Notes under the pieces: model-generated
The model's input: the letters and a program-made list of their open reading frames with translations, nothing else
Told to the model about the DNA's origin: nothing
The model's database searches: none
Part shown: in pieces, positions 13,800-50,837 of the stretch
Layout of the letters: each line of letters starts with the position of its first letter
Position numbering within the stretch: the first letter of the stretch is position 1
Assembly: GCF_002877365.1 (NCBI RefSeq)
Contig: NZ_MCWZ01000299.1
Coordinates: 1 to 64,000, forward strand
From: Vibrio sp. 10N.261.55.A7
GTDB taxonomy: Bacteria > Pseudomonadota > Gammaproteobacteria > Enterobacterales > Vibrionaceae
Direction: 5' to 3'
DNA: 64,000 nt
Program-made: the position numbers and the translations under genes

Positions 13800-14414
13800 A
13801 TGGACTCGATAGCAAAAAGACCACGCACGCGCCTTTCTCCTCAGAAACGTAAATTGCAACTAATGGAAATTGCATTAGAAGTGTTTGCAAAGAGAGGAAT
13901 AGGACGAGGTGGGCACGCCGATATAGCAGAAATTGCACAAGTTTCTGTTGCCACCGTATTCAATTACTTCCCAACGAGAGAAGATTTAGTAGACGATGTT
14001 CTAAATTATGTCGTCCGTCAGTTCTCCAACTTCTTAACCGACAACATTGATCTGGACATTCACGCCAAGCAGAACCTAAGAAACGTGACTAATGGCATGG
14101 TCAACCTAGTGATACAAGACTGTCACTGGCTTAAGGTTTGGTTTGAATGGAGTGCCTCTACTCGCGATGAAGTTTGGCCACTATTTGTTTCATCTAACCG
14201 AACGAATCAACTCTTGGTTAAGAACATGTTCATCAATGCGATCAATCGCGGTGAAGTATGCAGCGATCATGAACCAGACCACCTAGCAAACCTGTTCCAC
14301 GGTATTTGCTACTCGCTGTTCATTCAGTCTAACCGTCTGCAAAGTGAAATTGCACTAGAACAGCTAACAAGCAGCTATTTGGATATGCTTTGTATCTACA
14401 ATGAAGACAAGTAA
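13800..14414 (+). CDS. luxR: Quorum-sensing master regulator LuxR (HapR/OpaR/SmcR family)
   Basis: TetR-family DNA-binding protein that sits at the end of the Vibrio LuxO-Qrr phosphorelay and controls hundreds of high-density genes. The 204 residues start MDSIAKRPRTRLSP, nearly the V. harveyi LuxR N-terminus. The helix-turn-helix is IAEIAQVSVATVFNYFPTRE (about residues 42-61). The ligand/dimer domain keeps DCHWLKVWFEWSASTRDEVW. It is flanked by hpt and the lpdA end, as in other vibrios. It is unrelated to LuxR/LuxI-type AHL receptors. The species-specific gene name is uncertain. Confidence 0.96.
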   Translation: MDSIAKRPRTRLSPQKRKLQLMEIALEVFAKRGIGRGGHADIAEIAQVSVATVFNYFPTREDLVDDVLNYVVRQFSNFLTDNIDLDIHAKQNLRNVTNGMVNLVIQDCHWLKVWFEWSASTRDEVWPLFVSSNRTNQLLVKNMFINAINRGEVCSDHEPDHLANLFHGICYSLFIQSNRLQSEIALEQLTSSYLDMLCIYNEDK

Positions 14415-14496: not shown

Positions 14497-15927
14497 TTAC
14501 TTCTTCTTTTTCACTGCTTTTTTGTTTGGAAGGTCAGTGATTGAACCTTCGAAGACTTCCGCTGCTAGACCAACAGACTCATGCAGAGTTGGGTGAGCGT
14601 GGATAGTCAGTGCTATATCTTCTGCATCACAACCCATTTCGATTGCTAGGCCGATTTCGCCAAGAAGCTCACCACCGTTAGTACCCACAACAGCGCCACC
14701 GATTACGCGATGAGTATCTTTATCGAAGATCATCTTCGTCATACCGTCTGCACAGTCAGAAGCGATTGCACGACCAGAAGCAGCCCAAGGGAAAGTCGAC
14801 ACTTCGTAGTTAATGCCTTCCGCTTTCGCTTCTTTCTCAGTCTTACCAACCCACGCAACTTCAGGTTCCGTGTACGCGATTGAAGGAATCACTTTAGGGT
14901 CGAAGTAGTGCTTCTTACCAGAAATAACTTCAGCCGCTACGTGACCTTCATGCACACCTTTGTGAGCAAGCATTGGTTGACCAACAACATCACCGATTGC
15001 ATGAATGTGAGAAACGTTCGTCCGCATTTGCTTATCAACATTGATGAAACCGCGCTCATCAACCTCGATACCCGCTTTTTCAGCGTCGATAAGTGCACCG
15101 TTTGGAACACGACCGATAGCAACAAGAACAGCATCGTAACGCTCAGCTTCAGCTGGTGCTTTTTTGCCTTCCATTGAAACGTAGATACCGTCTTCTTTCG
15201 CTTCAACCGCAGTCACTTTAGTTTCAAGCATTAGCTTGAACTTGTCTTTGATGCGCTTTGTGAAGACTTTTACGATGTCTTTATCCGCCGCCGGGATAAC
15301 TTGATCGAACATCTCAACCACTTCAACTTTAGAACCTAAAGAGTGGTAAACCGTACCCATCTCTAGACCGATGATACCGCCGCCCATGATAAGCAGCTTT
15401 TCAGGTACTTCGTTCAGTTCTAGTGCATCCGTAGAATCCCAAATACGTGGGTCTTCATGTGGGATGAAAGGCAGTTTGATTGGACGAGAGCCCGCTGCAA
15501 TGATTGCGTTGTCGAAGTTAACCGTCGTTGCTTCGCCTTCACCTTCAACAAGGATGCTGTTAGGGCCAGTAAACTTACCGAAACCGTTAACAACCGTCAC
15601 GTTACGCATCTTAGCCATTCCGCCAAGACCGCCAGTCAGTTGATCAACAACTTTCTCTTTCCAGATACGGATCTTGCTGATGTCAGTTTGTGGCTCGCCG
15701 AATACGACACCGTGATCAGCCATCGCTTTAGCTTCTTCAATCACTTTTGATACGTGAAGAAGTGCTTTTGATGGGATACAACCAACGTTCAAACATACAC
15801 CACCAAGCGTGCTGTAACGTTCAACGAGTACTGTCTCTAGACCTAAGTCTGCACAGCGGAATGCAGCTGAGTAACCAGCAGGACCTGAACCAAGTACAAC
15901 AACTTGGGCTTTGATTTCTTTGCTCAT
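14497..15927 (-). CDS. lpdA: Dihydrolipoyl dehydrogenase (E3)
   Basis: Flavoprotein E3 subunit shared by the pyruvate and 2-oxoglutarate dehydrogenase complexes; it reoxidises dihydrolipoamide with NAD+. The 476 residues show FAD-binding GSGPAGYSAAFR, redox disulfide C45/C50 (GGVCLNVGCIPSK), NAD-binding GGGIIGLEMG and the catalytic HxxxxxHE as HAHPTLHES. The tail is lysine-rich (KKAVKKKK). It lies 238 bp downstream of aceF, separated by a hairpin, so it can be expressed with or apart from aceEF. Confidence 0.97.
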   Translation of the reverse strand: MSKEIKAQVVVLGSGPAGYSAAFRCADLGLETVLVERYSTLGGVCLNVGCIPSKALLHVSKVIEEAKAMADHGVVFGEPQTDISKIRIWKEKVVDQLTGGLGGMAKMRNVTVVNGFGKFTGPNSILVEGEGEATTVNFDNAIIAAGSRPIKLPFIPHEDPRIWDSTDALELNEVPEKLLIMGGGIIGLEMGTVYHSLGSKVEVVEMFDQVIPAADKDIVKVFTKRIKDKFKLMLETKVTAVEAKEDGIYVSMEGKKAPAEAERYDAVLVAIGRVPNGALIDAEKAGIEVDERGFINVDKQMRTNVSHIHAIGDVVGQPMLAHKGVHEGHVAAEVISGKKHYFDPKVIPSIAYTEPEVAWVGKTEKEAKAEGINYEVSTFPWAASGRAIASDCADGMTKMIFDKDTHRVIGGAVVGTNGGELLGEIGLAIEMGCDAEDIALTIHAHPTLHESVGLAAEVFEGSITDLPNKKAVKKKK

Positions 15928-16165: not shown

Positions 16166-18073
16166 TTACAGAACTAAACGGCGAATGTCAGACAGTGCGC
16201 TGTTTAGGAAAGTAATGAAGCGTGCACCTTCAGCACCATCGATCACACGGTGATCGTATGATAGAGACAGTGGTAATTGTAGGCGCGGTTCGAACTCTTT
16301 ACCGTTCCATACTGGCTTCATTTCAGACTTAGATACACCTAAGATACCCACTTCTGGTGCATTAACGATAGGCGTAAATGCAGTACCGCCGATACCACCA
16401 AGGCTAGAGATTGTGAAACAACCGCCTTGCATGTCTGCCGCTGTTAGCTTACCAGAACGTGCTTTCTTAGAAACAACCATTAGCTCTTCAGATAGCTCGT
16501 AAATGCCTTTCTTGTTCACATCTTTGAAGACAGGAACAACCAGACCGTTTGGTGTATCAACAGCGATACCCACGTTTACGTACTTCTTAAGAATGATGCT
16601 TTCGCCATCGTCAGAAAGAGAAGAGTTAAACGCTGGGAATGCTTCTAGCGCTTTCGCAACAGCTTTCATGATGAACACAAGTGGTGTGATCTTCATGCCT
16701 GTGTCTTTCTTCGCTTCGATTGCGTTCTGTTCTTTACGGAATGCTTCTAGCTCAGTGATGTCTGCATTATCCCACTGCGTAACGTGAGGGATCATTACCC
16801 AGTTACGGTGCAGGTTAGCGCCAGAGATCTTCTTAATCTTAGACAGCTTCTGAACTTCAGTTTCGCCGAACTTTCTGAAATCCACTTTTGGCCATGGTAG
16901 TAGACCAAGAGCGCTGCCGTCGCCGCCTTCGCCAGATGCTGCTGCACCAGACTCTAGACGCTTAAGTGCATCTTTAACGTAAGACTGAACGTCTTCTTTA
17001 AGTACACGGCTCTTACGACCAGTACCTTTAACTTTCGCTAGGTTTACACCGAACTCACGAGCTAGACGACGAACCACTGGAGACGCGTGCGCGTACTCAC
17101 CGTTTTCTTGGAAGTCGTTCGCAGCTGGCGCTTCAGCTTTTGCCGCAGGAGCAGGTGCTGCTGCCGGAGCCGCCACAGGAGCTGCTGCTTGTGCTGGAGC
17201 CGCTACAGGCGCCGCGCCTTCCACCGGAGTGCCGGCCACAACGAAAGTCATGATTAGAGAACCAGTTGACACTGTGTCGCCAGCGGCAATCTTAATCTCT
17301 TTCACTGTACCAGCGAATGGTGCAGGTACTTCCATTGAAGCTTTGTCGCCTTCAACAGTGATGAGAGATTGCTCTTCTTCTACTGTATCGCCAACCGCTA
17401 CCATGATTTCAGTCACTTCTACTTCGTCACCGCCGATGTCAGGAACGTTTACTTCTTTCTCAGCAGATGCTGCTGGAGCCGCCGCAACTGGTGCTGCCGC
17501 CGCAGGAGCCGGAGCTGCTGCAGGTGCTGAACCAGCCACCGGAGTGCCGGCCACTTCAAATACCATGACTAGAGAACCAGTAGAAACTGAATCACCAGAA
17601 GCGATCTTGATTTCTTTAACGATACCAGCGAATGGTGCAGGGACTTCCATTGAAGCCTTGTCGCCTTCAACAGTAAGAAGAGATTGCTCTTCTTCTACTG
17701 CATCGCCGATAGCAACCATGATTTCAGTGACTTCAACTTCGTCGCCACCGATATCAGGTACGTGAACTTCTTTAAGTTCAGATGCCGCCGCTGCAGCAGG
17801 AGCCGCTTCAGCCGGTGCTGCTGCACCTTCCGCAGGGGAGCCTGCCTCTTCAAAGATCATGATAAGAGAGCCAGTAGAGACTGAGTCGCCTTCGGAGATC
17901 TTAATTTCTTTAACCACACCCGCTTGAGACGCTGGTACTTCCATTGAAGCTTTGTCACCTTCAACAGTGATCAGTGACTGCTCTTCTTCAACCTTGTCGC
18001 CAACGCTTACAAGAATCTCAGTAACTTCAACCTCATCCGCACCGATGTCAGGTACATTAATTTCGATTGCCAT
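16166..18073 (-). CDS. aceF: Pyruvate dehydrogenase E2, dihydrolipoyl acetyltransferase
   Basis: Core of the PDH complex; transfers acetyl groups from lipoate to CoA. The 635 residues hold three lipoyl domains with lipoylated lysines K41, K139 and K244 (each in GDKASM). They are joined by Ala/Pro-rich linkers. A peripheral-subunit-binding domain follows near 328-365 ([16 protein letters not shown]) and the catalytic domain runs from about 405 to the end with DHRVIDG (H608). Domains two and three are almost identical. aceE lies 30 bp upstream in the same operon. Confidence 0.97.
17231..18073 (-). repeat. Three tandem lipoyl-domain coding repeats in aceF
   Basis: Three copies of about 228 bp at 17846-18073, 17546-17773 and 17231-17458 encode the lipoyl domains. 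The second and third encode nearly identical proteins (including [10 protein letters not shown] and [12 protein letters not shown]). Such repeats can expand or contract by recombination. Confidence 0.9.
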
Positions 18074-18103: not shown

Positions 18104-20767
18104 TTAAGCGTATTGTGGGTTTGTTTTTTCAGTGTCGATACCGAATTTAGCAATGGCTTCAACTACCACTGACTTCTCAATATCACCACGTTTAGCCAAT
18201 TCAGTTAGCGCTGCAACCACTACGTAGCCAGCATTCACTTCGAAGTGACGACGAAGGTTTTCACGGCTATCTGAACGACCGAAACCATCGGTACCAAGTA
18301 CTTTGTAAGACTCGCTTGGCATGTACGCACGTACTTGCTCTGCGTAGTTCTTCATGTAGTCAGTCACTGCGATAGCAGGTTCGTTACCAAGAACAGTTGT
18401 GATGTACGGTACTTTCTCTTCCGCTTCTGGGTGAAGCATGTTGTCACGCTCTACCGCTTGGCCGTCACGAGTTAGTTCGTTGAACGACGTTACAGAGAAT
18501 ACGTCAGAGGCTACGCCGTACTCTTCGCTTAGAATTTCAGCTGCTTTACGCGCTTCGTTCATGATAGTACCAGAGCTCATTAGTTGAACTTTGCCCTTGC
18601 TACCTGCGTGAGATTCAAGCTTGTAAATACCCTTACGAATGCCTTCTTCAGCGCCTTCTGGCATTGCTGGCATTGCGTAGTTCTCGTTCATTACTGTTAG
18701 GTAGTAGTAAACGTTCTCTTGCTCAGGACCGTACATGCGACGAATACCGTCTTGCATGATGACCGCTAGCTCGTAAGCAAACGTTGGGTCGTAAGAGATA
18801 CAGTTAGGGATCGTGTTCGCTTGAATGTGCGAGTGACCATCTTCGTGCTGCAGACCTTCACCGTTCAGCGTTGTACGACCTGCTGTCGCACCTAGTAGGA
18901 AGCCACGAGCTTGTTGGTCGCCTGCTAGCCATGCCATGTCACCAATACGTTGGAAACCGAACATTGAGTAGTAGATGTAGAACGGGATCATCGGTAGGTC
19001 GTTCGTGCTGTATGAAGTTGCCGCTGCAACCCATGACGCCATAGAACCTAATTCGTTGATACCTTCTTGAAGAACTTGACCAGACGTTGCTTCTTTGTAG
19101 TAAGAAACGATGCCTTTATCTTCAGGTGTGTATTCTTGACCGTGTGGGTTGTAGATACCAACCTGACGGAACAGACCTTCCATACCGAATGTACGTGCTT
19201 CATCACAGATGATAGGAACGATGTTCTTACCAATGTTCTTGTCTTTAAGCAGGATGTTCAGTGTACGTACATACGCCATAGTCGTTGAGATTTCACGCTT
19301 TTGAGCGCCAAGTAGCGGAGCAAATTCTTCTAGCTCTGGTACTTTGAATTCTTGAGTGAACTTAGGAATACGTTTCGGTGTGTAACCTTGTAGCGCTTTA
19401 CGACGCGCGTGAAGGTATTCGTATTCTGCAGAGCCTTCTTCAAGCGTCAGGTAAGGCAGCTCGGTAATTTTCTCGTTCGTTAGAAGATCTTGAAGACCTA
19501 GACGATCACGTAGGTATTGCACGTGAGTCATGTCCATCTTCTTAACGCCGTGCGCAATGTTCTTACCTTCTGCCGCTTCGCCCATGCCGTAACCTTTAAC
19601 AGTCTTAGCTAGGATTACGGTTGGCTTGCCACCGGTTTCTTTTGCATTGTTGAATGCAGCGAACAGTTTAGAAGAATCGTGACCACCACGCTTAAGCGCG
19701 AAGATTTCGTCATCAGTCATGTCAGCAACAAGAGCCGCTGTTTCAGGGTACTTACCAAAGAAGTGCTCACGTACGTATGCGCCATCTTTAGATTTGAATG
19801 TTTGGTAGTCACCGTCGATAGTTTCGTTCATTAATTGAAGAAGCTTACCTGTCGTGTCTTTAGCCAGTAGAGAATCCCAGTTGCTACCCCAGATAACTTT
19901 AACAACGTTCCAACCTGCACCTTTAAATAGGCCTTCAAGTTCTTGGATGATGCTACCGTTACCCATTACAGGTCCGTCTAGGCGCTGTAGGTTACAGTTG
20001 ATTAGGAAACATAGGTTGTCTAGCTTTTCACGCGCGGCGAAAGAGATAGCACCACGTGATTCAGGCTCATCCATCTCACCGTCACCTAGGAACGCGTATA
20101 CGCGTTGAGCGTTAGTCTCTTTCAGACCACGACCTTCTAGATACTTTAGGAAACGCGCTTGATAGATAGCCGAAATAGGACCTAGACCCATAGAAACTGT
20201 AGGGAACTGCCAGAATTCAGGCATCAGTTTAGGGTGTGGGTAAGAAGGAACACCTTTACCATCCACTTCTTGACGGAAGTTATCTAACTGCTCTTCAGTT
20301 AGACGACCTTCAACGAAAGCACGAGAATAGATACCAGGAGAGATATGACCTTGGTAGTAAACCAAATCGCCACCGTCCGTCTCATTTGGAGCGCGGAAGA
20401 AGTGGTTGAAACAGACTTCGTAGAACGACGCTGCAGACTGGTAAGAAGCCATGTGACCACCAAGGTCCAGGTCTTTCTTAGAAGCACGCAATACGATCAT
20501 GATTGCGTTCCAGCGAATGATTGAACGAATACGACGTTCAAGAGTTACGTCACCTGGATAGGCTGGCTCTTGTGCTGCTGGGATTGTGTTGATGTAGTTT
20601 GTGTTGATGCCTGTTGGCATATCTACACCATCTAAACGTGCTTTGTCTAAAACTTGCTCTAGTAAAAACTGAGCGCGTTCTACACCTTCTTCACGAACAA
20701 CTGATTCAAGTGCTTCTAGCCAATCTTGAGTTTCCAGTGCGTCTACGTCATGCTTCATGTCAGACAT
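18104..20767 (-). CDS. aceE: Pyruvate dehydrogenase E1, homodimeric type
   Basis: Thiamine diphosphate enzyme that decarboxylates pyruvate and reductively acetylates E2 lipoate. The 887 residues match the E. coli AceE size. Recognisable are the N-terminal DVDALETQDWLEALESV, the ThDP-binding region GDGEMDEPESRGA...NCNLQRLDGPV, and the C-terminal GTDGFGRSDSRENLRRHFEV. It is the second gene of pdhR-aceE-aceF, starting 53 bp after the pdhR stop. Confidence 0.98.
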   Translation of the reverse strand: MSDMKHDVDALETQDWLEALESVVREEGVERAQFLLEQVLDKARLDGVDMPTGINTNYINTIPAAQEPAYPGDVTLERRIRSIIRWNAIMIVLRASKKDLDLGGHMASYQSAASFYEVCFNHFFRAPNETDGGDLVYYQGHISPGIYSRAFVEGRLTEEQLDNFRQEVDGKGVPSYPHPKLMPEFWQFPTVSMGLGPISAIYQARFLKYLEGRGLKETNAQRVYAFLGDGEMDEPESRGAISFAAREKLDNLCFLINCNLQRLDGPVMGNGSIIQELEGLFKGAGWNVVKVIWGSNWDSLLAKDTTGKLLQLMNETIDGDYQTFKSKDGAYVREHFFGKYPETAALVADMTDDEIFALKRGGHDSSKLFAAFNNAKETGGKPTVILAKTVKGYGMGEAAEGKNIAHGVKKMDMTHVQYLRDRLGLQDLLTNEKITELPYLTLEEGSAEYEYLHARRKALQGYTPKRIPKFTQEFKVPELEEFAPLLGAQKREISTTMAYVRTLNILLKDKNIGKNIVPIICDEARTFGMEGLFRQVGIYNPHGQEYTPEDKGIVSYYKEATSGQVLQEGINELGSMASWVAAATSYSTNDLPMIPFYIYYSMFGFQRIGDMAWLAGDQQARGFLLGATAGRTTLNGEGLQHEDGHSHIQANTIPNCISYDPTFAYELAVIMQDGIRRMYGPEQENVYYYLTVMNENYAMPAMPEGAEEGIRKGIYKLESHAGSKGKVQLMSSGTIMNEARKAAEILSEEYGVASDVFSVTSFNELTRDGQAVERDNMLHPEAEEKVPYITTVLGNEPAIAVTDYMKNYAEQVRAYMPSESYKVLGTDGFGRSDSRENLRRHFEVNAGYVVVAALTELAKRGDIEKSVVVEAIAKFGIDTEKTNPQYA

Positions 20768-20820
20768 GGCGATCTATCCTTCTATTGGTTGGATTTTAGA
20801 TAAACAGTCAAAGAGCCGTA

Positions 20821-21591
20821 CTAAGACGACTCTTTGCCTTGTTGAATTCGGCGTAAAGAACGTTCTCTTCGAGATTCCTCACGCGTTAAATCCAACAATG
20901 TTTCTTCAATATAAGCTAAATGTGAGTGTGACATTTCACGCGCCTTTTCAGGCTGACCCGAAACGATCGCATCCACAATATTCGCTCTGTGTTTGCTTAC
21001 TTTTTCAACCACGTCTTCGCGGCGATGTAACAACTTTAAATTCTGTAAAATGTTTTGCTCTAGCAATGGAGCAAGGCTACGAACAATGTGCAGCAATACG
21101 ACATTGTGAGCCGCTTCAGTCAGTGCCACGAGGAACTTCATGACCGCACTGGCTTCTGCTTCAATATTCTTTTCTTTTTGCTCTTCACCGATGTTGGCTA
21201 AGCATCCTTGGATGCGGGCAAAATCTTCTTCTGTCCCACGCAATGCCGCAAAGTAGGCAGAAATGCCTTCCATTGCATGACGTGATTCAAGCAGGTCTAG
21301 CTGAGTTTCTGAATGGCTAGATAATAAATTTAGCAGAGGATCAGAAAAACTCTTCCAAATGCTCTCACTGACGAACGTTCCGCCACCTTGGCGACGCGTT
21401 AATAATTTTTTTGCTTCAAGGCGCTGAATAGCTTCTCTAACCGACGGACGTGACACGTCGAACTGCTTCGCTAACTCGCGCTCTGGCGGTAATTGCTGAC
21501 CGGGTGCTAGGGTGCCTTCCACTATCAATTGTTCGAGCTCCTGCTCAATAACATCAGATAATTTAGGCTGACGAATCCTTTGATAAGCCAT
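20821..21591 (-). CDS. pdhR: Pyruvate dehydrogenase complex repressor PdhR
   Basis: GntR-family (FadR subgroup) repressor relieved by pyruvate. The N-terminal winged helix contains [11 protein letters not shown] and [17 protein letters not shown], followed by RRQGGGTFV. The C-terminal FCD effector domain includes [21 protein letters not shown] chose the ATG at 21591 ([17 protein letters not shown], as in E. coli), giving 256 residues. A longer start at 21633 would place a PdhR operator inside the coding region. It heads the aceEF operon and is probably autoregulated through two operators upstream. Confidence 0.95.
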
Positions 21592-21618
21592 ATCGATTGC
21601 TCTTCCCACTCCAGCGTA

Positions 21619-21635
21619 AATTGGTAATACCAATT
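21619..21635. promoter_or_regulatory. PdhR operator 1
   Basis: AATTGGTAATACCAATT is a perfect 7-bp inverted repeat around 3 bases. It matches the E. coli PdhR consensus (ATTGGT-N3-ACCAAT) and lies 28 bp upstream of the pdhR ATG. Confidence 0.85.
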
Positions 21636-21687
21636 ATTTGATGGGCAGAAAATTAACATATCCAAATCAACTCTGTCCAGTGAAATA

Positions 21688-21701
21688 TTGACTCAAATCA
21701 A
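21688..21701. promoter_or_regulatory. FNR-like box with one mismatch
   Basis: TTGACTCAAATCAA has one mismatch to the FNR consensus TTGAT-N4-ATCAA and lies between the two PdhR operators. It could mediate anaerobic repression of PDH, as in E. coli. Confidence 0.4.
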
Positions 21702-21766
21702 GGAACAGTGCCGAATCTAACAAAACGATAACTTAATTTATTTATTCACAAATAGTTAATAAACAA

Positions 21767-21783
21767 AATTGGTCATACCAATT
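21767..21783. promoter_or_regulatory. PdhR operator 2
   Basis: AATTGGTCATACCAATT is a second perfect PdhR palindrome. Its centre is 148 bp from that of operator 1. Confidence 0.8.
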
Positions 21784-21847
21784 ACAAAGAGGACACAAAC
21801 CCACCTGACCTTAATATCATTTAAACTATTGATTTAACGAAATTAAA

Positions 21848-21861
21848 TTGATTAAGATCAA
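21848..21861. promoter_or_regulatory. FNR box upstream of pdhR
   Basis: TTGATTAAGATCAA fits the FNR consensus TTGAT-N4-ATCAA exactly. It lies 257 bp upstream of the pdhR ATG, in the 345-bp spacer that also holds two PdhR operators and the recJ terminator. Confidence 0.55.
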
Positions 21862-21898
21862 GAAATAATCACGATAAGTGTAGATAAAAAGTGAAGAT

Positions 21899-21920
21899 AG
21901 AGCCTTAGAGTTAAGGCTCT
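21899..21920 (-). terminator. Terminator hairpin after recJ
   Basis: A 9-bp stem (AGAGCCTTA / TAAGGCTCT) with a 4-base loop lies 17 bp past the recJ stop. The T run is distant, so termination may be imperfect. Confidence 0.6.
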
Positions 21921-21936
21921 ACATAAGATAGAAATG

Positions 21937-23676
21937 TTAAATTGTGTCGAGGTGTTCAATCATAAGCTGAAGCGATTGATTGCCTCTGAACTCATTGATA
22001 TCAAGTTTAAAAGCGACTCGCGCTTTTTTGGTCGACGCATCAGGCCAGCGTCGAAGGTCAACGTTAAAAGCAATACCATCCACCATGATATTGGTCGGGT
22101 GACCTTTATGAAGAGGTTCTAACATCAGTTTTAAGTGCTTCTCTCCGACCAACTTCTGATGAAGTATCTTAAATTCGCCGTCAAAAATTGGCTCAGGGAA
22201 GGCTTGTCCCCACGGGCCGCCAGCGCGAAGTAACTCGGCCGTGTGCATCGAAAATTGCTCAGGGGTTAACTCACCATCCGATAAAATCACCCCCTTGAGT
22301 GCATTATCATCAAGCTCTTGTCTCACCACCTGATCGAACAAGGCAGAGAATTTCTCAAAGTCAGACTCTTTAATACTTAGCCCTGCTGCCATAGCGTGCC
22401 CGCCAAACTTCGCAATGAGTCCGGGATTTTGAGTATCGATTCGATCGAGTGCATCTCTCATGTGAAGCCCGGGAATAGAGCGACACGATCCTTTGATCAT
22501 ACCTTCGCCCCCATCTGCGAATGCAATGACGGGGCGATGGAACTTCTCTTTGATACGAGAGGCCAAAATACCAATCACACCTTGGTGCCAGTCTCGTTGA
22601 AACATAACAAGGCCGTGTGGCAGCTCTGAATTATCACCAAATTGAAGTCGTTCGCATAAAGCCATCGCTTCTTGCTTCATGCCTTCTTCAATCTCTTTAC
22701 GTGTCTGATTCAAGCCATCGAGTTCACTTGCCATGCGTCGTGCGGCATGGATGTTATTGCTCATTAAGAGTTCAACACCAAATGACATGTCGTCTAGCCG
22801 CCCTGCCGCATTAATTCTAGGGCCAAGTGCAAAACCAAAGTCAGTGGCGACCAATCGATGAGCATCCTTTTTGGCCACTTCTATCAATGCTTGAATACCC
22901 GGTCTCGCTTTGCCAGCCCGGATCCGCTGCAATCCTTGATGCACTAAGATGCGGTTGTTTTCATCCAAAGCAACGACATCGGCAACCGTGCCAAGAGCAA
23001 CCAAGTCAATCAATTCCATTAGCTTGGGTTCAGCCATGTGATTGGCACTAAACCACCCGACTTTTCTCATGTGCACGCATAACGCCATCATAAGATAAAA
23101 GGCAACACCGACACCGGCTAACGATTTAGAGGGGAAGTCACAAGATTCTAGATTAGGGTTGACCATCGCATCCGCAATAGGAAGCTCATTTCCCGGTAAG
23201 TGGTGATCCGTGACTAAGACTTGTAAGCCTTTCTCTTTCGCATAGCGAACGCCATCAATAGAAGAGACACCGTTGTCGACCGTCATAATGACTTCTGCGC
23301 CCAGAGCAATCGCTTGATCCACAACCTCAGGGCTTAAGCCATAACCATCTTCAAAACGATTCGGCACAAGGTAATCAACATTGCTACTGCCTAGCATTCT
23401 CAGCGCCAGAACAGACAGTGCTGAACTGGTTGCCCCATCGGCATCAAAGTCTCCGACAATGATGATGCGTTGGTTCTTGCTTACCGCATCAAATAGAAGT
23501 TCAACGGCTTGTTGAATACCATCTAACTCTTGATACGAGTGCAATGCTCGAGATGCCTTATCTAGCTGTGCGGCAGATTCAATACCACGATTGATGTACA
23601 CTCGCTTTAACAGCGGATCAATTGGCTCATCAAGAAGGGAGAGATCAACATCGGGACGACGAAGAATTTCTATCAT
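21937..23676 (-). CDS. recJ: Single-stranded-DNA-specific exonuclease RecJ
   Basis: 5'-3' ssDNA exonuclease of the DHH phosphoesterase superfamily, used in RecF recombination and mismatch repair. The 579 residues contain VGDFDADGATSSAL (motif I), VTDHHLPG (the DHH motif) and the C-terminal DHHA1 nucleotide-binding part with KFGGHAMAAGLS. It follows dsbC in the xerD-dsbC-recJ order, also seen in E. coli, after a 94-bp gap containing a hairpin. Confidence 0.97.
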   Translation of the reverse strand: MIEILRRPDVDLSLLDEPIDPLLKRVYINRGIESAAQLDKASRALHSYQELDGIQQAVELLFDAVSKNQRIIIVGDFDADGATSSALSVLALRMLGSSNVDYLVPNRFEDGYGLSPEVVDQAIALGAEVIMTVDNGVSSIDGVRYAKEKGLQVLVTDHHLPGNELPIADAMVNPNLESCDFPSKSLAGVGVAFYLMMALCVHMRKVGWFSANHMAEPKLMELIDLVALGTVADVVALDENNRILVHQGLQRIRAGKARPGIQALIEVAKKDAHRLVATDFGFALGPRINAAGRLDDMSFGVELLMSNNIHAARRMASELDGLNQTRKEIEEGMKQEAMALCERLQFGDNSELPHGLVMFQRDWHQGVIGILASRIKEKFHRPVIAFADGGEGMIKGSCRSIPGLHMRDALDRIDTQNPGLIAKFGGHAMAAGLSIKESDFEKFSALFDQVVRQELDDNALKGVILSDGELTPEQFSMHTAELLRAGGPWGQAFPEPIFDGEFKILHQKLVGEKHLKLMLEPLHKGHPTNIMVDGIAFNVDLRRWPDASTKKARVAFKLDINEFRGNQSLQLMIEHLDTI

Positions 23677-48483: not shown

Positions 48484-50271
48484 TTACGCTAAGCTTAGAA
48501 GTGGTGAGCCAACAGTCACAGAGTCGCCTTCTTTAACAAGTAGGTCTTGAACGATACCGCCACGAGCAGCACGAACTTCTGTTTCCATCTTCATCGCTTC
48601 TAAAATAAGTAATACATCCCCTTCCGCAACTTGTGCGCCAGACTGAACGTTTACTTTGAATATATTACCAGCAAGTGGGGCAGGTACCGCTTCAGCATTA
48701 CCTGCAGGTGCAGCAGCAGGAGCCGCCTGTACTGGCGCAGCACCTTGTGCGGGTGCGACTGAGGTCAGTTCACCTTGTGGGCCAACTTCAACATCAAAAA
48801 CTTGACCGTCGACTTTCACGCTGTAGCTTTCAATACCGCCAACCGCTTTAACAGGAGCAGATGTGACTTGAGCAGCAGACTCTAACGTCGGTGCTGGTTC
48901 AAATGCTTCAGGGTTACGGCGATTCTTAAGGAATTTTAGGCCAACTTGTGGGAACAATGCGTAGGTAAGCACGTCATCGACTGTGTCTTCTGCTAAAGAG
49001 ATACCATCCGATTTCGCTTTTTCTAGTAATTCAGTGGTTAATGAATCAAGTTCGTTTTCTAGCAGATCCGCTGGGCGACATGTTACAGGCTCTGCGCCAT
49101 CGAGAACCTTCGCTTGAAGCTCTTGATCGACTTCGGCAGGAGCAGCGCCATACTCGCCTTTTAGTAGACCCGCAGTCTCTTTTGTAATGCTCTTATAACG
49201 CTCACCCGTCAATACGTTAATAACCGCCTGAGAGCCCACAATTTGTGAGGTAGGGGTGACAAGAGGAATGTAACCAAGCTCTTTACGAACGCGAGGAATC
49301 TCTTCCAGTACTTCATCGAGACGATCAGCTGCACCTTGCTCTTTCAGTTGGCCTTCCATATTGGTCAACATACCGCCAGGAACTTGAGCAATGAGGATAC
49401 GGGAATCAATACCTTTAAGCTGCCCTTCCCATTTTGCGTATTTCTTACGTACTTCACGGAAATAGGCAGCAATAGGTTCAATTTGATCAAGCTTTAGATT
49501 CGTATCGCGCTCTGTACCTTCTAACATCGCAACAACTGTTTCGGTTGGCGTATGGCCATAAGTACAGCTCATAGAAGAGATAGCGGTATCGAGAATATCG
49601 ACACCCGCTTCAACGGCTTTCACTGCTGTTGCCGTCGATAAGCCCGTTGTCGCATGACAGTGCAATGCTAATGGCACGTCACAAGACTCTTTGATTCGTG
49701 AGATAAGCTCTTCAGCTTCATATGGCTTAAGCAGACCTGACATGTCTTTAATACAAAGAGAGTGACAGCCAAGATCTTCCAAGCGCTTGGCAAGATCAAC
49801 CCAAGTATCTGAGTTATGAACAGGGCTTGTTGTGTATGACAGCGTGCCTTGAGCATGTGCGCCAACTTCTTTCGTCGCTTTCACTGCAGTTTGGAAATTG
49901 CGTACATCGTTCATTGCATCAAAGATACGGAAAACGTCCATACCGTTGGTATGCGCTCGTTCAATGAACTTTTCTACTACATCATCCGCGTAGTGACGGT
50001 AACCCAATAGGTTTTGACCTCGCAGTAACATCTGCATAGGTGTGTTTGGCATCGCTTTCTTTAATTCACGCAAGCGCTCCCAAGGATCTTCACCTAGAAA
50101 ACGAATACAAGAATCGAAGGTTGCGCCACCCCAAGTTTCAAGTGACCAATAACCGATTTTATCCAACTCTGCCGCAATAGGCAGCATATCTTCAATACGC
50201 ATACGCGTAGCAAATAGTGACTGATGGGCGTCACGAAGGACCACATCCGTAATAGCTAGTGGTTTAGACAT
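48484..50271 (-). CDS. oadA: Oxaloacetate decarboxylase, alpha subunit
   Basis: Carboxyltransferase domain with [16 protein letters not shown] and metal-binding HCHATTG, a PYC_OADA conserved domain, an Ala/Pro linker and a C-terminal biotinyl domain with [10 protein letters not shown] (biotin lysine about 35 residues from the end). About 595 residues. I chose the ATG at 50271 because AGGAG lies 9 bases upstream; the ATG at 50277 would leave only 3 bases. Confidence 0.96.
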
Positions 50272-50302
50272 GCTCATTAACTCCTTTTAATCCTTAAAAA
50301 AT

Positions 50303-50823: not shown

Positions 50824-50837
50824 TTGATATTTATCAA
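50824..50837. promoter_or_regulatory. FNR box upstream of oadGAB
   Basis: TTGATATTTATCAA fits TTGAT-N4-ATCAA exactly and lies 264 bp upstream of oadG in an AT-rich 366-bp spacer. The rest of the spacer holds only the tRNA terminator and an unassigned inverted repeat TGATG...CATCA near 50699-50715. Confidence 0.5.

Follow-up and report, generated by a model that had tools for sequence, protein, structure and literature searches.

A conserved second PdhR-type operator upstream of pdhR-aceEF in Vibrio and related families, a candidate for two-operator autorepression

Carbon passes from glycolysis into the TCA cycle through pyruvate dehydrogenase, an enzyme whose regulation is taught on the example of Escherichia coli. 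In that organism pdhR is autoregulated, PdhR repressing from a promoter-proximal operator located at +11 to +27 (PMC10572922), and a genome-scale study of FNR lists a site at -50.5 of pdhR-aceEF-lpdA with direct repression (PMC3688515). A comparative study from 2007 gives candidate FNR sites for the operon in all four of its columns VV, VP, VC, and VF, which are taken here to be vibrios, together with ArcA sites in three of these columns and NarP sites in three (PMC1805755). In kind, oxygen control at the pdhR promoter is already known or predicted. For the Vibrionales, Leyn et al. (2016) report that PdhR controls only the pdh operon, the table row for PdhR reading 55 (6), 200, 399 (PMC5343134).

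By sequence, E. coli lldPRD is the nearest precedent for the arrangement described here. It likewise has a FadR-subfamily repressor and two boxes nearly identical to that of PdhR, which deviate from the PdhR pattern at 1 and 3 positions and are 126 bp (12.0 turns) apart; two LldR-binding sequences have been reported for this operon (PMC10272880). It differs in that LldR senses lactate and with it activates the operon (PMC10272880), and in that reporter work is described as having seen no sign of looping by LldR (PMC7804116). According to the same account, paired LldR sites in a reporter library gave no enhanced repression at lacUV5, and evidence that LldR might loop is cited there, so far as that source goes leaving the case for looping by FadR-subfamily repressors thin and partly negative (PMC7804116). 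The loops formed by LacI, GalR, and AraC share with the present case a distant auxiliary operator and a dependence on helical phase (PMC7804116), whereas the pdhR pair is a prediction from sequence. In GntR-family divergons, paired FadR-subfamily sites at a near-constant distance have been read as cooperative, but these lie between divergently transcribed genes (Suvorova et al., 2015; PMC4494728), whereas the upstream gene is co-directional here. We found no report in the literature of two PdhR operators at pdhR, and the RegPrecise site tables, which were outside this search, may list both. The one bacterial paper found to contain the words “two PdhR” refers to the pdh and ndh boxes (PMC12510636).

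We analyzed a stretch of 64,000 nucleotides of Vibrio sp. 10N.261.55.A7 (contig NZ_MCWZ01000299.1, positions 1 to 64,000; hereafter the window), for which an initial annotation had proposed two perfect PdhR operators, interleaved with FNR boxes, upstream of pdhR-aceEF. The features of this region are:

14497..15927, minus strand: open reading frame, which we take from its sequence to be an lpdA-like dihydrolipoyl dehydrogenase
16166..18073, minus strand: aceF (NF008814, 984 bits)
18104..20767, minus strand: aceE (TIGR00759, 1508.5 bits)
20821..21591, minus strand: pdhR (NCBIfam NF007001, 442.7 bits, cut-off 330), its ATG at 21591-21589
21619..21635, minus strand: predicted proximal PdhR operator AATTGGTATTACCAATT, exact pattern match
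21650..21658, minus strand: putative extended -10 element TGTTAATTT, by analogy with E. coli (TGTTACTTT); presumably also ArcA-like
21674..21679, minus strand: putative -35 element TGGACA, from conservation in Vibrio and the same place in E. coli
21688..21701, minus strand: near-exact FNR box TTGACTCAAATCAA / TTGATTTGAGTCAA, 1 mismatch, at about -51 from the predicted start
21716..21732, minus strand: ArcA-like direct repeat between the operators, two GTTA 11 bp apart, from sequence and alignment; we presume a likeness to the ArcA repeat motif
21767..21783, minus strand: predicted distal (auxiliary) PdhR operator AATTGGTATGACCAATT, exact pattern match
21848..21861, minus strand: exact FNR box TTGATTAAGATCAA / TTGATCTTAATCAA, lineage-specific, 5' of the distal operator
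21897..21922, minus strand: terminator-like hairpin after recJ, 5' of both operators (1 found, 0.3 expected)
21937..23676, minus strand: recJ, the 5' neighbor on the same strand as pdhR (NF008290, 1031 bits)

The profile matches to pdhR, aceE, and aceF confirm the location proposed initially, and the gene order, with pdhR first and then aceE, aceF, and the lpdA-like ORF, fits a PdhR-regulated pdh operon. The nearest named relatives by PdhR identity are Vibrio sp. MedPE-SWchi (99%) and V. amylolyticus (96%). An Rfam scan of positions 20500-22500 returned two hits, both sub-threshold. Beside lpdA, on the opposite strand, the window contains a TetR-type regulator ORF (13800-14414), which we take to resemble the LuxR/HapR quorum-sensing regulator of vibrios.

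Both operators match the palindrome AATTGGT-N3-ACCAATT exactly, with their centers 148 bp apart and 35.5 and 183.5 bp 5' of the pdhR ATG, as had been claimed, and they are the only exact matches in the whole assembly (4,939,727 bases, i.e., 4.94 Mb, in 341 contigs), the reversed control containing 0. Weak matches are uninformative on their own because their counts are close to or below those of shuffled or reversed controls: with up to 3 mismatches the window contains 4 against 3.89 expected from shuffling, and when up to 2 are allowed, 29 occur in the genome against 44 in the reversed control. Other PdhR-like sites were noted elsewhere in the genome (L003-L006, L009, L011, and L015). Structures of PdhR are contained in the PDB.

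An alignment of 81 upstream regions (the window and 80 named Vibrio loci) has a conserved core in the order FNR-like box, TGGACA, TGTTAATTT, and proximal operator, and the same order occurs in E. coli K-12 (ATGATTTCAATCAA, TGGACA, TGTTACTTT, AATTGGTAAGACCAATT). Information content was calculated from 51 Vibrio sequences with pairwise identities below 85%; in this set the block CTGGAC reaches 1.81 bits per site and the block ATGTTAATT, in the -10 region, 1.91. Since a simple scan, which misses the main promoter proposed here as well, found 0 sigma-70-like consensus matches in 21500-22000 where 2.0 were expected, the promoter elements were derived from the E. coli alignment. By this analogy transcription would start near 21643, and the proximal operator would be centered at about +17, with the near-exact FNR box and the distal operator at about -51 and -132, respectively. 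Relative to the promoter elements, just 3' of the predicted start, the proximal operator occupies the position of the operator in E. coli. The pdhR promoters of the two organisms have in common the repressor, the sequence and place of this operator, TGGACA, the extended -10, and the position of the FNR box. They differ in the upstream gene, which is the divergent aroP in E. coli and a co-directional neighbor in the window, and in the distal operator. The usual picture of a single PdhR site in E. coli is borne out, no second operator being present within 420 bp, where the nearest match has 4 mismatches.

At 78 of the 80 named Vibrio loci, a distal operator with up to 3 mismatches is present 135-148 bp 5' of the proximal one. 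Lack of conservation in related species had been named at the outset as one of two findings that would refute the proposal; this did not occur, the site being kept in these loci and in several other families (see below). The proximal and distal operators hold 1.93 and 1.57 bits per site, compared with 0.79 for the 65 bp of spacer 3' of the distal operator and 0.45 on its 5' side. Among the 17-mers whose first base is between -320 and -127, the five best conserved each overlap this operator. The two Vibrio loci that lack it, L063 and L066, retain only the left half (AATTGGTCAGATCTGCT) at about 211 bp 5' of pdhR, apparently as a result of decay. In Vibrio the distal operator is part of a longer conserved block that extends about 20 bp to each side, with TGT before it and TTATTGCYGTTTTAAT after it, and another factor may bind these flanks.

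The gene content upstream varies. RecJ is encoded on the same strand at 42 of the 80 named loci and is absent from the 33 others that have a full 2.5-kb flank, the remaining 5 having short flanks; the sampled loci without recJ carry a different ORF, which we presume to be ampD-like. Among upstream ORFs of 150 codons or more, the one closest to pdhR runs in the same direction in 75 of 77 loci (the flank was too short in 3 of the 80), the exceptions being L064, where a divergent ORF starts about 0.56 kb away, and L032, where the sole ORF of 150 codons found sits about 1.3 kb away. A function of the distal site for a divergent neighbor was, therefore, rejected for Vibrio. Because the neighbor is co-directional, be it recJ or the ampD-like ORF, the distal site seems to serve pdhR and to survive changes just upstream.

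The occurrence of the distal site was also compared across families of the window's order (labeled f, with f1 the window's own family, taken as Vibrionaceae on the basis of the named relatives by PdhR). A strict rule was applied, in which the GGT and ACC cores are intact, the proximal and distal sites have up to 2 and 3 mismatches, respectively, and the two are 80-300 bp apart. The regions come from part of the genomes with a PdhR hit; 65 rows with the last 180 bp identical to another row, including the window's own duplicate, were dropped, and an f7 locus with an incomplete flank (L301) was left out. The distal site was present in 72/77 named Vibrio and 67/80 drawn f1 regions, two sets that share species. 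It was also found in all regions of f2 (6/6), f16 (5/5), f13 (4/4), and f11 (2/2), in f25 (29/34) and f10 (9/12), and in f6 (18/32), f21 (3/6), f12 (2/6), f17 (3/9), and f7 (23/71; 64 have a proximal site, 41 of those without a distal one). It was missing from 14/32 regions of f6, 4/6 of f12, and 6/9 of f17, and under the strict rule none was detected in f19 (0/9), f26 (0/1), or E. coli K-12 (0/1). Chance would produce a distal site in 0.24% of 6,960 Markov-shuffled segments under this rule and in 3.7% under a looser one. A class-wide search for paired exact sites yielded only 2 of 274 genomes, a figure that says little because the gap range used (98-128) excludes the window itself. The double operator is the common state in several families, and a single site is common in others. 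Given how widely the second site occurs in related bacteria, the arrangement in E. coli does not represent the general rule.

At 10.5 bp per turn, the 148 bp between the operators of the window correspond to 14.1 turns, in line with the initial remark that this distance is close to a whole number of turns (about 14). Operator spacing ranges from 103 to 289 bp overall and from 126 to 211 bp in f1, where the hand-merged spacing clusters (127.5, 134.3, 137.6, 147.7, 189, 202, and 210.5) give a resultant length of 0.73 at 10.5 bp (Rayleigh p = 0.02) and a best period of 10.6 in a scan from 8 to 14. Shifts from the common 138-bp spacing amount to -0.96, -0.31, +0.96, +4.90, +6.13, and +6.94 turns, and a weak 181-bp site is +4.13 turns away from it. 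The same analysis of the better sites in the other families resulted in p = 0.25. A phase test specified in advance and applied to 25 values at genus level (from f7, f6, f21, and f16) resulted in V = 0.29 and p = 0.021, with p = 0.049 for the 12 f7 values, none of them seen before, and p = 0.16 for f6. The test was partly unblinded, since all values of f21 and f16 and five of the nine of f6 had been seen earlier; seven f7 spacings seen beforehand (133, 135, 146, 147, 148, 157, and 168) were excluded from it. Pooling of 39 hand-merged family-level clusters gave a Rayleigh p of 0.021 and p = 0.004 in a jitter test, with 30 of them deviating from the common phase by no more than a quarter turn and a best period of 10.85, not 10.5. 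The clusters outside f1 gave R = 0.23 and p = 0.19 (f7 alone, p = 0.42; f6 alone, p = 0.19), and the f16 spacings (118 and 121) as well as others such as 122, 124, 132-134, and 153 run against the common phase. Because of shared ancestry, all these values are less than independent. We read this as modest support for a phase constraint between the operators, and for looping, but not as proof of a loop: the helical phasing that had been suggested is supported in part, with a whole-turn bias in f1 (p ~0.02) and in the partly unseen test set (p = 0.02) and no significant bias in the other families by themselves (p = 0.19). Over distances of 126-211 bp, such a constraint would argue for contact between bound proteins across a loop of DNA. 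By itself, phase dependence is no proof of a two-operator loop, because in the reporter library the distal sites of most repressors tested are reported to have had cyclic effects also where no proximal site was present (PMC7804116).

The explanation that we favor, with a probability of about one half for the account as a whole, is that PdhR autorepresses pdhR-aceEF-lpdA from two operators. At the proximal operator (about +9 to +25), one PdhR dimer would block transcription in the E. coli fashion, and another, bound at the distal operator (about -132), would contact the first across the 148 bp (14.1 turns) and strengthen repression. The resulting small loop would enclose the promoter, the FNR box at about -51, and the ArcA-like repeats, and pyruvate would release PdhR and open the loop. 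PdhR binding, the start site, loop formation, and the response to pyruvate are what we infer in this scheme; what was found is the pair of predicted operators with their conservation, promoter-like elements that are conserved as well, and a bias in spacing. A conserved second operator predicted for the same repressor is in keeping with a two-operator repression loop. The distal site is very probably a genuine auxiliary operator. We are less confident that it does so through looping, and no evidence was found for the formation of PdhR tetramers. In marine bacteria, repression would become tighter or steeper through such a conserved second operator. The spacings found in nature within one family (126 to 211 bp) form a series that lends itself to testing whether a FadR-subfamily repressor can loop DNA. 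Rather tentatively, we propose that a PdhR loop around the pdh promoter is ancestral in the Vibrionaceae and several sister families and has been kept by selection for helical phase through repeated indels. It would be absent from, or lost in, E. coli and some families, and the textbook single operator would be a derived alternative.

The distal site may instead be a genuine PdhR site that acts locally without a loop, through a second promoter, a block to elongation, or an action at a distance that does not touch the proximal dimer. Several observations fit this: the extra conservation of its flanks in Vibrio, as an overlapping promoter element might give, the spacing that varies from 103 to 289 bp, and the helical periodicity that distal sites alone can show (PMC7804116). 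However, conservation of these flanks (TGT and TTATTGCYGTTTTAAT) was not seen in the other groups compared, and the scan with 0 sigma-70-like matches against 2.0 expected also speaks against it, to the extent that a scan that misses the presumed main promoter can. We consider local action unlikely. It is improbable that the distal site is a decoy that buffers free PdhR and has no direct effect on the promoter. The autoregulation of pdhR leaves room for such a role, in which a strong extra site would matter only if PdhR were scarce, but a decoy need not keep a distance of 126-211 bp from the proximal operator in f1 lineage after lineage.

Reading of the distal site by another FadR-subfamily regulator such as LldR, which would bring in lactate control, seems slightly more improbable still. 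In the upstream regions compared, the central triplet of distal sites is CAG/CTG in 118/219 cases, which fits the E. coli LldR consensus AAnTGGTCnGACCAnTT (PMC10272880), against only 5/270 for the proximal sites, where AAT/ATT predominates (208/270). However, the distal operator of the window itself has an ATG/CAT center, and LldR was rejected as its reader in this organism since no protein in the genome passes the NCBIfam cut-off, the top hit being PdhR and the next scoring 81 bits vs. 311. The CAG/CTG center of distal sites may determine affinity or DNA bending. That the distal site is a functionless relic, as the half sites of L063 and L066 and the absence of a distal site in E. coli and f19 might suggest, is the least probable of these alternatives given how strongly it is conserved, surrounded by diverged spacer sequence, in the 51 non-redundant Vibrio sequences.

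With up to 1 mismatch, 9 FNR-type boxes occur in the whole window, compared with 3.83 expected. The initial annotation had assigned two of these to the spacer between the operators, which is correct for the near-exact box (21688-21701), whereas the exact box (21848-21861) is positioned 5' of the distal operator; along the transcribed minus strand the exact FNR box comes first, followed by the distal operator, the near-exact FNR box, and the proximal operator. In the 51 non-redundant Vibrio sequences the near-exact box holds 1.64 bits per site vs. 0.60 for the exact box, which occurs in few lineages and was rejected as a conserved part of the promoter. At 60-69 bp 5' of the proximal operator, 215/269 regions contain an FNR box when up to 2 mismatches are allowed, among them E. 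coli (1/1), nearly all named Vibrio (76/80) and drawn f1 (98/101) regions, f10 (12/12), and most of f19 (6/9); none was found there in f2 (0/6), f7 (0/5), f16 (0/5), or f21 (0/5). Oxygen control via FNR, as put forward initially, is supported for the near-exact box, which is conserved and has the -50.5 position reported from E. coli, and not for the exact box, unconserved in most vibrios. EMSA experiments with Plesiomonas shigelloides, in which FNR is reported not to have bound the pdhR promoter while phosphorylated ArcA did (PMC10572922), count against a simple FNR story.

Exact FNR boxes 5' of the distal operator occur in 10 of the regions compared, the window included. The others are in L016, L017, L074, L088, L089, L097, L207, and L208, and also in L076; their central bases differ, and they are located 69.5-103.5 bp 5' of the distal operator (194.5 bp in L076). 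In several Vibrio lineages such boxes look as if they had been gained repeatedly. Elsewhere in the window, an exact FNR box (TTGATATTTATCAA) occurs at 50824-50837, about 0.55 kb 5' of a minus-strand ORF (48484-50277) that we take to resemble the alpha subunit of oxaloacetate decarboxylase.
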